DNA of 64,000 bases, taken from NCBI RefSeq assembly GCF_000364605.1, contig NZ_KB822577.1:186001-250000 (forward strand). The letters run 5' to 3'. Below, piece by piece: positions 3,895-21,188 of the stretch. The notes under the pieces are model-generated. The model saw only the letters and a program-made list of their open reading frames with translations, was not told where the DNA came from and did not search any database. The translations under genes were made by a program, and so were the position numbers. The DNA is from Nocardioides sp. Iso805N. Its GTDB lineage: Bacteria; Actinomycetota; Actinomycetes; Propionibacteriales; Nocardioidaceae. The stretch's first letter is position 1. Every line of letters begins with the position of its first letter.

Positions 3895-4740
3895 TCAGTT
3901 GGGGATCCAGTCGAAGGTGTCGGGGTTGGGCCCGGTCCGGCCGGCCTCACCCTTGTCCAGCGCGTTCAGCGAGGTGACCTCGTCGTCGCTGAGGGTGAAG
4001 TCGAAGACGTCGATGTTCTCCGCCAGCCGCTCGCGATGAGTCGACTTCGGGAACACGATGTCGCCGCGGTCGAGGTGCCAGCGCAGCACCACCTGGGCAG
4101 GCGTCTTGCCGTGCTTGTCCGCCAGTGCGGTGATGACCGGGTCGGTCAGCTCGCCGCCACCCTGACCCAGAGGCGACCAGGCCTGCACGAGTGCGCCGTG
4201 CTCCAGGGTCGCCGGCCGGGCCGGGTTGTCGAAGTAGGGATGCAGCTCGATCTGGTTCACCACCGGTACGACGCCGGTCGCCTGCACGATCGTGTCCAGG
4301 TGTGCGGGCTGGAAGTTCGAGACGCCGATCGAGCGGGTCAGCCCGGCCTCGCGCAGCTCGATGAGCGCGGCCCACGTGGCGGTGAAGTCTCCGCCGTACC
4401 GGGTGGGCAGCGGCCAGTGGATGAGGAACAGGTCGACCTGGTCGAGGCCGAGCTCGTCCAGGGACCTCTTCAGTGACTCGCGGGCCTTGGCAGGCTCGTG
4501 GAAGCTGTTGTTCAGCTTCGTGGTCACGTAGACATCGTCGCGGGCCAGGCCCGAGGCCGAGATCGCGGCTCCGACGCCCGCTTCGTTGCCGTACATCTGC
4601 GCGGTGTCGACATGGCGGTAGCCCAGCTCCAGAGCCTCGCTCACGACGCGCTCGGAGTCGGTCGGCGGCACCTGCCACACGCCGATGCCGAACTGGGGGA
4701 TGGTGGTCTGATCGTGAAGTGTCAGTGATGGAACGGCCAT
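3895..4740 (-). CDS. Aldo/keto reductase (AKR), NADPH-dependent
   Basis: 281 residues, typical for a short prokaryotic AKR (AKR3/AKR5-like, 2,5-diketo-gluconate reductase type). The catalytic tetrad is complete: Asp45 and Tyr50 in HVDTAQMYGNE, Lys75 in TTKLN, His108 in LIHWP. The C-terminal nucleotide-binding segment FPKSTHRERLAENIDVFDF is also present. It reduces aldehydes or ketones; the natural substrate is not evident. The ATG at 4740 lies six bases after TATTGT on the minus strand, so the mRNA is probably leaderless. The Nudix gene starts 18 bases away in the opposite direction. A second, related AKR lies at 16665-17504. Confidence 0.92.
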   Translation of the reverse strand: MAVPSLTLHDQTTIPQFGIGVWQVPPTDSERVVSEALELGYRHVDTAQMYGNEAGVGAAISASGLARDDVYVTTKLNNSFHEPAKARESLKRSLDELGLDQVDLFLIHWPLPTRYGGDFTATWAALIELREAGLTRSIGVSNFQPAHLDTIVQATGVVPVVNQIELHPYFDNPARPATLEHGALVQAWSPLGQGGGELTDPVITALADKHGKTPAQVVLRWHLDRGDIVFPKSTHRERLAENIDVFDFTLSDDEVTSLNALDKGEAGRTGPNPDTFDWIPN

Positions 4741-4745
4741 ACCGC

Positions 4746-4752
4746 GACAATA
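4746..4752. promoter_or_regulatory. Symmetric -10 element serving two divergent leaderless genes
   Basis: GACAATA reads as GACAAT for the plus-strand Nudix gene (GTG at 4758) and as TATTGT for the minus-strand AKR gene (ATG at 4740). Each is six bases from its start codon, and the two start codons are 18 bases apart. Confidence 0.6.
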
Positions 4753-4757
4753 GACAC

Positions 4758-5222
4758 GTGACCCAGGCCTCCCACCCCGCTCCCCACTACACCGAGTACG
4801 ACACCCGACTGGCCGCCTACGCCGTCGTGGTGCGCGGCGAGGAGGTGCTGCTCGCGCTGTGGAACGAGGAGGACCGCAAGCGCTGGACGCTGCCCGGCGG
4901 CGGCGTTGAGCTGCGCGAGACGGTCGAGGACGGTGCCGTCCGGGAGGTCCGTGAGGAGACCGGGTACGACGTCGAGCTCGTCGGGCTGCTGGGCATCGAG
5001 ACGGACGTGTTCGGTCCGGACGAGCGGCGTACCGACACCGGCCGCCCGCTGAAGGCTGTCCGGGTCTTCTTCTCCGCGAGGATCGTCGGCGGTGAGCTTG
5101 CGAACGAGGCCGACGGCACCACCGACGAGGCGCGCTGGTTCGCGCTGGCCGACGTGGCCGGACTGCCGCACACCAGCATGGTCGACACCGGATTGCGGTT
5201 GAGCGGGTTTGTAGCGGGGTAA
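4758..5222 (+). CDS. Nudix hydrolase
   Basis: 154 residues with a complete Nudix box at about 48-70 (GGVELRETVEDGAVREVREETGY matches Gx5Ex7REUxEExGU in spacing and key residues). Such enzymes cleave a nucleoside diphosphate linked to another group. The WTLPGGGV lead-in and a TDTGRPLKAVRVFF segment are like those of actinobacterial ADP-ribose/MutT-like members, but the substrate is open. I chose GTG 4758 because a -10-like GACAAT lies six bases upstream; ATG 4728 in the same frame would overlap the divergent AKR gene. A GC-rich hairpin follows the stop. Confidence 0.88.
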   Translation: MTQASHPAPHYTEYDTRLAAYAVVVRGEEVLLALWNEEDRKRWTLPGGGVELRETVEDGAVREVREETGYDVELVGLLGIETDVFGPDERRTDTGRPLKAVRVFFSARIVGGELANEADGTTDEARWFALADVAGLPHTSMVDTGLRLSGFVAG

Positions 5223-19436: not shown

Positions 19437-20624
19437 CCGCGGCCCGCTGAGGTCGCTGCCCGCCAGCCGTTCCAGCGCCGTCTCGACCACCTCGGGTCGC
19501 TTGCAGAACGCCCAGCGCACCAGCTGCCGGCCGGGGTTGTCGGCGGCATCGCGGTCAGGGTCGTAGAACCCCTGGGTCGGGATCGCCACCACCCCCGCGC
19601 GCCCTGGCAGTGCCCGACAGAACGCGTCGCCGTCGGCCCAGCCGAGGCCGGTGATGTCGGTGGTGGCGAAGTAGGTGCCCTGCGGCACCGTCACGGCCAG
19701 CCCGAGGGCGCGCAGGCCTTCGCAGAGCAGATCGCGCCGCTCCTGCAACGAGGCGGCCAGCCGGGCCGGCCAGTCCGGCTCCTCGTCGAGGGCGTACGCC
19801 GCGGCAGGTTGCAGCGGTGCTCCCGAGGTGAAGGTCAGCCACTGCTTGGCGGCCAGCACCGCCGCGACCAGGTGCGCGGGCCCGCTCGCCCAGCCGACCT
19901 TCCAGCCGGTGAACGAGTAGGACTTGCCGATGCTGGACAGGGTCAGCGTCCGCTCGAACATCCCCGGCAGCGTGGCGAGCGGATGGTGCTCGTTGTGGTG
20001 GGTCCCGGTGCCGTAGGTCAGGTGCTCGTAGACCTCGTCGGTGACCACGATGAGGTCGTGCTCGACCGCCACGTCGGCGACGGCCTGCAGCTCGGCGCGG
20101 GTGAGCACCGTCCCGGTCGGGTTGTGCGGAGTGTTGAGCAGGATCACCCGGGTCCGCTCGCTCACCGCGGACCGCAGTGCGGCCACGTCCAGCCGGAAGT
20201 CGGGGGCCCGGAGGGTGACCGGGCGGCGTACGCCTCCTGCCATCGTGATCATCGCCGGGTAGGAGTCGTAGTAGGGCTCGAGCAGCACCACCTCGTCGCC
20301 CGGCTCGACCAGTCCGAGGATGGCGGCCGCGATCGCCTCGGTGGCTCCGGTGGTGATCACCACCTGGGTGGCTGGGTCGAGGTCCAAGCCGTAGTGCCGC
20401 TGCTGGTGCCGAGCGACGGCCTCCCGCAGCACGGGTACGCCGGGGCCCGGGGCGTACTGGTTCGCGCCTCCGCGCAGCGCCGCCACGGCGCGCTCCACCA
20501 CGTCCGCCGGCCCATCGACGTCCGGGAACCCCTGGCCCAGGTTGATCGCACCGGTCGCCGTCGCCAGCGCGGACATCTCGGCGAAGATCGTGGGAGGGAT
20601 GCCCCGCAGGCGCGACACGGTCAC
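19431..20624 (-). CDS. dapC: PLP aminotransferase, N-succinyldiaminopimelate aminotransferase-like (DapC)
   Basis: 397 residues, class I/II fold. The PLP lysine is in SSIGKSYSFTGWKVGW. NTPHNPTGTVLT and DEVYEHLTY are the cofactor-contacting segments, and the N-terminus has INLGQGFPDVDGP. The whole sequence closely follows the M. tuberculosis DapC type, with MSALATxxGAxNLGQGFPD and WAFCKR near the end, so a role in lysine/diaminopimelate synthesis is likely. Kynurenine-oxoglutarate or methionine aminotransferase activity is the alternative, as these are close relatives. GTG 20624 is seven bases after TAGCCT on the minus strand; the divergent pyrE start is 19 bases away. Confidence 0.8.
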   Translation of the reverse strand: MTVSRLRGIPPTIFAEMSALATATGAINLGQGFPDVDGPADVVERAVAALRGGANQYAPGPGVPVLREAVARHQQRHYGLDLDPATQVVITTGATEAIAAAILGLVEPGDEVVLLEPYYDSYPAMITMAGGVRRPVTLRAPDFRLDVAALRSAVSERTRVILLNTPHNPTGTVLTRAELQAVADVAVEHDLIVVTDEVYEHLTYGTGTHHNEHHPLATLPGMFERTLTLSSIGKSYSFTGWKVGWASGPAHLVAAVLAAKQWLTFTSGAPLQPAAAYALDEEPDWPARLAASLQERRDLLCEGLRALGLAVTVPQGTYFATTDITGLGWADGDAFCRALPGRAGVVAIPTQGFYDPDRDAADNPGRQLVRWAFCKRPEVVETALERLAGSDLSGPRG

Positions 20625-20630
20625 GCGCTT

Positions 20631-20637
20631 TAGGCTA
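20631..20637. promoter_or_regulatory. Symmetric -10 element for divergent dapC-like and pyrE genes
   Basis: TAGGCTA reads as TAGGCT for pyrE (six bases before GTG 20643) and as TAGCCT on the minus strand for the aminotransferase (seven bases before GTG 20624). Confidence 0.65.
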
Positions 20638-20642
20638 GCGGC

Positions 20643-21188
20643 GTGACCGATCTGCCCCTGAACGACGCGACTCTTGCCGCCGACATCGACGCCGCCTGCC
20701 GCCTGCACGGCACCTTCACCCTGCGCTCGGGCCAGGTGAGCGACACCTACTTCGACAAATACCTCTTCGAGGCCCAGCCCGCCCTGCTCGAGCGCGTCGC
20801 CGCCCGGATGGTCGAGCTCCTCCCGGAGGGCACCGAGCTGCTCGGCGGCCTGGAGATGGGCGGCATCCCGATCGCCACCATGGTCTCGGCCAAGACCGGC
20901 ATCCCGGTGATCTTCATCCGCAAGAAGGCCAAGGAGTACGGCACCGCGAAGCTGGCCGAGGGCCCGGCGTACGACGGCAGGCGGGTGACCCTGATCGAGG
21001 ACGTGATCACCTCGGGGGGTGCGGTCCGCGACGCGGTGAACGCGCTGCGGCCGGCGGGCGCGATCGTCGACACCGTGGTGTGCGCCATCGACCGCTCGCC
21101 GGAGCCGGGGGAGTCGCTGCGCGACGTCGACCTGGCGATCCGCTCGGTGCTCACCCGCGCCGAGCTGGATGCTGTCCAGCAGGGCTGA
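20643..21188 (+). CDS. pyrE: Orotate phosphoribosyltransferase
   Basis: 181 residues. The PRPP-binding motif is VTLIEDVITSGGAVRDAV (about 119-136). The N-terminal FTLRSGQVSDTYFDKYLF and the flexible-loop segment FIRKKAKEYGTAK are typical of PyrE. It converts orotate and PRPP to OMP in pyrimidine synthesis. GTG 20643 is preceded by TAGGCT with a six-base gap, so the transcript is probably leaderless. It diverges from the DapC-like aminotransferase and is followed by a GC hairpin. Confidence 0.95.
   Translation: MTDLPLNDATLAADIDAACRLHGTFTLRSGQVSDTYFDKYLFEAQPALLERVAARMVELLPEGTELLGGLEMGGIPIATMVSAKTGIPVIFIRKKAKEYGTAKLAEGPAYDGRRVTLIEDVITSGGAVRDAVNALRPAGAIVDTVVCAIDRSPEPGESLRDVDLAIRSVLTRAELDAVQQG

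Follow-up and report, generated by a model that had tools for sequence, protein, structure and literature searches.

Bidirectional promoters of bacteria have as their hallmark the reciprocal coincidence of -7T and -11A on the two strands at a distance of 18 bp, and they frequently possess -18T, which is no requirement (PMC10268837). The same 18 bp is the commonest distance between divergent start sites (PMC12825309). An earlier note on the DNA studied here had already stated that symmetric -10 elements with an 18-base geometry are known for bacterial divergent transcription, which matches both of these sources. Leaderless genes average 19.2% in Actinobacteria (PMC3160421) and reach a share of 22-26% in M. 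tuberculosis, where closely juxtaposed divergent promoters are also known and where prpD and Rv1129c are divergent and both leaderless (PMC3898074). Concerning promoters of the stress response, those of SigH in C. glutamicum follow GGAAT-N17-19-GTT, and SigH accepts GGAAN (PMC10012870).

The window, i.e. the whole stretch of 64,000 nucleotides that was analysed, belongs to a Nocardioides genome of 4,432,195 bases in 23 contigs and contains the divergent genes of an aldo/keto reductase (AKR) and a Nudix hydrolase (Table 1). Comparison with related genomes makes it rather likely, in our estimate, that both genes are expressed from one common element at 4746-4752, which would act as a doubly leaderless bidirectional promoter. 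Use of this element towards AKR, that is, in reverse, is the less certain half of the bidirectional reading.

Genes and geometry of the AKR/Nudix junction

The earlier note had described two divergent starts 18 bases apart with a common GACAATA/TATTGTC, and the sequence from 4738 to 4760, which reads CAT, ACCGC, GACAATA, GACAC and GTG in succession, agrees with this: the distance between ATG of AKR and GTG of Nudix is 18 bp from first base to first base, with 17 bp between them. Its count of six bases on each side is right when taken from each hexamer, and must be corrected to five when taken from the heptamer.

Table 1. Features of the AKR/Nudix junction in the window and gene-pair types at the 18-bp loci of the class with coding frames on both sides
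Feature	Position or locus	Strand	Basis or remark
AKR gene, DkgA/DkgB-like aldo/keto reductase, 281 aa	3895..4740	-	ATG 4740-4738; Pfam PF00248, E 1.3e-50
Nudix hydrolase gene, 154 aa	4758..5222	+	GTG 4758-4760; Pfam PF00293, E 1.4e-21
Heptamer GACAATA/TATTGTC, common to both genes	4746..4752	both	direct reading
Putative Nudix -10 hexamer GACAAT	4746..4751	+	6 nt before GTG
Putative AKR -10 hexamer TATTGT	4747..4752	-	6 nt before ATG
Predicted AKR transcription start	4740	-	A of ATG; geometry
Predicted Nudix transcription start	4758	+	G of GTG; geometry and conservation
dapD/dapE	L194-L197		families run on L194, the others by likeness
AidB/BrkB-like	L183		by likeness
Two AI-2E transporters	L175, L176		families run on L175, L176 by likeness
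Beta-eliminating lyase with sigma-region protein	L187 and four more		families run on L187, the other four by likeness
GH5 with CtaA	L189		families run on L189

The reciprocal -7T/-11A coincidence on the two strands is present at A4747 (-11 for Nudix, its paired base being -7T for AKR) and at T4751 (-7 for Nudix, its paired base being -11A for AKR). Furthermore, T4740 supplies -18T for Nudix, and AKR has C at that place, opposite G4758. For AKR, the TANNNT expected some 12 bp ahead of a leaderless start is found as TATTGT; GACAAT of Nudix has A-11 and T-7, with G at -12. The symmetry itself is not independent evidence, because the 18-bp spacing together with A-11/T-7 on one strand forces the bases of the other; the independent facts are the 18-bp spacing, the T that TATTGT has at -12, and the comparisons presented below.

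The 20 nt upstream of each start contain none of the four Shine-Dalgarno-like tetramers checked, and a good -35 was not seen in either direction at the heptamer. The search for sigma-70 consensus promoters found none and had little power, as none was expected by chance either. The best NCBIfam models for AKR are DkgA and DkgB, both below their cut-offs, and its alignments to relatives start at residue 1 in 25 of 25 and 35 of 35 cases. The gene caller, which is blind to motifs, placed the AKR start elsewhere, at GTG 190680 (contig C3), so ATG 4740 rests on homology.

Leaderless-type starts are common in this genome. In 450 kb of the window's contig, with 389 genes and starts picked blind to the motif, NANNNT precedes 59 of the 389 starts at spacer 6 and 27 at spacer 7, the mean at spacers 8-19 being 9.6; the corresponding figures for TANNNT are 33, 20 and 1.0. 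The excess amounts to about 17% of genes in this sample.

Conservation of the two sides among relatives

Of the 294 genomes of the family sample, 89 contained a relative of Nudix with an E value of 1e-20 or lower, and all 89 places and further loci were taken. This gave 153 distinct Nudix places, of which 40 had a divergent AKR by the limits of our script; the other 113 were excluded from counts. In 39 of the 40 AKR/Nudix pairs, A-11/T-7 precedes an in-frame start codon of Nudix by a spacer of 5-7, the exception being locus L003. The spacer is 6 in 35 of these (by a rule that prefers 6 wherever any start has it), 5 in two and 7 in two; if the downstream-most start codon is taken instead, without regard to the motif, spacer 6 is still seen in 31 of 40. 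Frequent forms are GACAATGCTCACGTG and GAGAATGCTCACGTG, and 36 of 39 pairs, the window among them, have G or C at position -12. NANNNT shows a second peak before Nudix at spacer 3 (18 of 40), which by eye comes from a conserved block ending TCAC and is also a sign that the 40 sequences are kin to one another, so that P values assuming independence are too small. On this comparison, leaderless expression is probable for the Nudix gene, with GTG 4758 as its start.

Upstream of AKR, GGAA[TC] lies 34-37 bp before the ATG in 28 of the 40 pairs; within 25-50 bp it occurs nowhere else, and three more matches stand at 9 or 15 bp. By eye, GTT stands 17 bp further on in L003, L009 and L021, with related letters in others. 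The AKR gene of most relatives is thus probably driven by a SigH/SigR-type stress promoter, as judged from these motifs, and a SigH/SigR sigma factor is encoded in the window genome (TIGR02947, 353 bits, cut-off 251.55). Among the 12 pairs without GGAA[TC], five have GGAAG and two have TGAAT at the same place (by eye), and a clear GGAAT is missing from L010, L024 and L057, which are nonetheless unfused, i.e. their genes are not at the 18-bp distance. The window (L001) and its sister species (L002) also belong to these 12. Within 200 bp upstream of the window AKR there is no GGAA, and hence no GGAAT with GTT 17-19 bp further on as in SigH/SigR promoters; TATTGT is the sole TANNNT on the AKR strand over the same distance. 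The sister has no GGAA[TC] within 90 bp upstream of AKR and has TATTGT at spacer 6, and these two are the only ones of the 40 pairs with NANNNT at spacer 6 before AKR. Moreover, the position just behind the Nudix hexamer is occupied by G in 31 of 39 pairs and by A in two, both of them the fused species; because of A4752 the reverse hexamer is TATTGT, with T-12, instead of CATTGT.

The distance from start to start is 18 bp in the window and the sister (G236) and 38-105 bp in the other 38 pairs, with 64-66 bp the commonest. In the AKR tree the two fused species form one clade (support 100/96), the next being L024 (105 bp) and L003 (64 bp, with GGAAT). The fused state, found in two sister species, amounts to one event, and there is no second lineage among the 40 pairs. 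The simplest history would be that about 46 to 87 bp were lost once from the intergenic gap, and that base 4752 changed to A. In that case, the ancestor of the window species and G236 would have lost a SigH/SigR-like AKR promoter as the gap closed, AKR would have come to depend on the reverse side of the Nudix -10, and base 4752 would have become A. Deletion between two short CAATG repeats was considered as the exact origin, the flanks not deciding it. In L038 and L039, the starts are 39-40 bp apart and there is overlap between the Nudix -10 and the GGAAT that precedes AKR (GATCATTCC before ATG), an arrangement which looks like a tighter, two-promoter stage.

Proposed mechanism and alternative readings

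We propose that a single, nearly symmetric -10 of 7 bp, of the housekeeping-sigma type, binds RNA polymerase in either orientation. In one orientation, polymerase would begin transcription at G4758 and yield a leaderless mRNA of Nudix, and in the opposite one at A4740, with a leaderless mRNA of AKR as the product; we infer that initiation towards Nudix and towards AKR would be mutually exclusive. The idea of the earlier note that one 7-bp element sets two leaderless genes draws its support from comparison, namely from the conserved Nudix -10, from AKR being without the motif of its relatives and from the preference for 18 bp in the class. The AKR/Nudix junction may be taken as a minimal two-gene promoter with predictions base by base: changes of A4747 or T4751 are predicted to affect both genes, A4752 mainly AKR and G4746 mainly Nudix.

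The same sequence could be a one-way promoter of Nudix, with the symmetry a by-product and AKR transcribed weakly or by chance. The Nudix -10 is indeed the conserved, older element, the reverse A-11/T-7 follows automatically from the 18-bp spacing, and the fusion is absent from any second lineage among the 40 pairs. However, the reverse hexamer fits TANNNT better than the forward one, the A that gives T-12 is confined to the fused lineage, AKR has neither another TANNNT nor GGAA in 200 bp, and the two fused species each have an intact AKR, with 89% identity between them; taken together, we consider this explanation unlikely, while giving it more weight than the two that follow. AKR may otherwise have a promoter of its own inside the Nudix gene, in which case its mRNA would carry a leader antisense to Nudix. 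Weak promoters may evade consensus scans, and ECF-type sites may be degenerate. Nevertheless, within 200 bp on the AKR strand GGAA is absent and TANNNT occurs just once, and the 20 nt before the ATG are devoid of the four Shine-Dalgarno-like tetramers checked, which makes a separate AKR promoter quite improbable.

The least probable case, to which we attach very little weight, is a Nudix start at ATG 4728 from an upstream promoter, raised as an alternative by the earlier note. This codon is in frame and open, and AAGTGT, a NANNNT, precedes it at spacer 5. Against it, the plus strand has no TANNNT in the 200 bp before 4758, the codon is without a Shine-Dalgarno-like tetramer upstream and its position falls within the AKR coding region. 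Furthermore, relatives have their Nudix start and -10 at the place of GTG 4758; it is because the leaderless-type -10 occurs in 39 of the 40 pairs that GTG 4758, not ATG 4728, is the likely start, and the same count argues against the alternative. The bidirectional, doubly leaderless reading of the common element is the one we prefer.

Recurrence of close divergent starts

In the window itself, an aminotransferase gene (PLP, GTG 20624, minus strand) and pyrE (GTG 20643, plus strand) have a common TAGGCTA and starts 19 bp apart, and 20624-20643 is likely a second doubly leaderless bidirectional promoter. A divergent aminotransferase accompanies pyrE at 24 of 30 loci, window included. In eight of these 24, as read by eye, 19-20 bp separate the two starts and enclose one core, and the remaining 16 have wider gaps between the aligned parts. 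Among the close-spaced loci, pyrE of L363 is distant from the other seven, at 74% identity vs 85-99%. When 295 divergent pairs in 1.79 Mb were scanned without regard to motif, one pair had starts less than 25 bp apart, pyrE/aminotransferase, which is too few for a peak; AKR/Nudix was missed because the AKR start had been placed wrongly. Elsewhere in the window, an array of a 24-base unit (890-1096; 8.6 copies, 87% matches) sits within an ORF at 728-1117 that reads as Asp-Gly-Thr repeats; this ORF is followed by a long ORF (1219-2235) with a cupin-type look by eye.

Across the class, the pattern CAY-N(k)-TANNNTA-N(k)-RTG was searched at start spacings of 16, 18 and 22 bp in the same 197 genomes. 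The spacing of 18 bp gave 174 sites in 112 of 197 genomes (sites summed by hand), compared with 52 sites in 33 genomes at 16 bp and 44 sites in 32 genomes at 22 bp. The reversed pattern, used as control, gave about 199, 418 and 353 sites at 18, 16 and 22 bp, respectively; the 18-bp sites do not exceed their own reversed control, and relative to control they are about seven times the other two. The reversed pattern is without start and stop codon letters and is no neutral baseline, for which reason the spacings were compared with each other.

For each spacing, 30 loci were taken in a non-random selection with at most one per genome, and a side was called coding at 100 aa or more with third-position G+C at least 0.08 above that of the locus, or by length alone at low G+C. 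Both sides were coding at 13 of 30 loci at 18 bp, one of 30 at 16 bp and two of 30 at 22 bp (13/30 vs 3/60, P 2e-5). Low-G+C genomes contributed one, eight and 14 of the 30 loci at 18, 16 and 22 bp; above 55% G+C the counts are 13/29, 1/22 and 2/16 in the same order (13/29 vs 3/38, P 0.001). By reading, the 13 coding loci at 18 bp fall into five gene-pair types (Table 1) and are not 13 independent cases. In four genomes (L194-L197, near 1501-1523 of each locus), dapD and dapE, both of diaminopimelate synthesis, have a common GTACCGTA flanked by GTG starts at the 18-bp distance.

The genus sample contained 33 sites of the 18-bp TANNNTA pattern vs 30 in the reversed control (summed by hand), and both sides were coding at 23 of 28 loci. 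It does not provide many independent cases, because 19 of the 28 are one orthologous AidB/BrkB pair by N-terminal reading, with Pfam run on L141 alone. In this pair, an AidB-like acyl-CoA dehydrogenase and a BrkB-like membrane protein have a common TAC[CG]GTA and ATGs exactly 18 bp apart (site at about 1501-1523; L141-L168). In the window genome, TAGGCT precedes AidB at spacer 7 and looks leaderless in type; inspection by eye showed no start of BrkB 18 bp away. As to the exact heptamer, GACAATA at 18-bp spacing occurs in 13 of 391 genomes, the reversed pattern in two of 391. Both sides are coding at three of 12 loci with the exact match: the window, its sister and G127 (L379), where the identical heptamer is flanked by a ManC-like nucleotidyl transferase and a frame without a Pfam family.

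The putative doubly leaderless 18-bp architecture recurs and, in the class, is over-represented at 18 bp in comparison with 16 and 22 bp. It may be that such promoters are a distinct, selected architecture of Actinomycetes, with a 7-bp -10 core and little else as the intergenic region, an 18-bp start spacing set by polymerase geometry, and formation upon closure of the gap. In the present locus this would have happened by capture, with AKR giving up a stress promoter of SigH/SigR type for the housekeeping promoter of Nudix and the two genes becoming coupled by mutual exclusion. This wider proposal is a tentative one, and our credence in it stays slightly below even.

Comparison with known systems and significance

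Bidirectional promoters and leaderless genes are each known; for doubly leaderless 18-bp bidirectional promoters as a class, we found no description in the open-licence literature searched. The excerpts of PMC10937400, PMC7566282 and PMC4128351 have nothing on doubly leaderless bidirectional promoters, and the word 'leaderless' appears 0 times in that of PMC12825309.

Since both start codons lie on the start sites that we infer, the spacing of start codons in genome sequence may report bidirectional promoters, and their number and birth could then be tracked in thousands of Actinomycetes with no need of RNA data. The relatives moreover offer a before-and-after series for a gene switching promoter and perhaps regulon: most of them have GGAAT at the -35 place of AKR, as in SigH/SigR promoters (PMC10012870), and it is absent in the window and the sister.

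Actinobacterial leaderless genes carry TANNNT some 12 bp ahead of the start codon and no Shine-Dalgarno sequence (PMC3160421 and PMC3898074). Here, neither gene is preceded by a Shine-Dalgarno-like tetramer, and AKR has the TANNNT; unlike those genes, AKR and Nudix share one element, and the Nudix side is without T-12. The prpD/Rv1129c pair of M. tuberculosis is divergent, like AKR/Nudix, and doubly leaderless, as is predicted for AKR/Nudix, and a common -10 is not stated for it in the excerpt of PMC3898074. In the promoter itself, there is a close likeness to the bidirectional promoters with -10 symmetry of Warman, Grainger and colleagues, where start sites are 7-25 bp apart with the mode at 18. 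AKR and Nudix have start codons 18 bp apart, with RNA starts predicted at the same places, and resemble these promoters in the common -10, the reciprocal -7T/-11A and the position between divergent genes, with -18T on the Nudix side alone (PMC10268837 and PMC12825309). They differ from them, as described in the excerpts of both articles, in that the start codons fall on the predicted start sites, so that both mRNAs would be leaderless, and in that nothing but the -10 and its flanks lies between the two genes.
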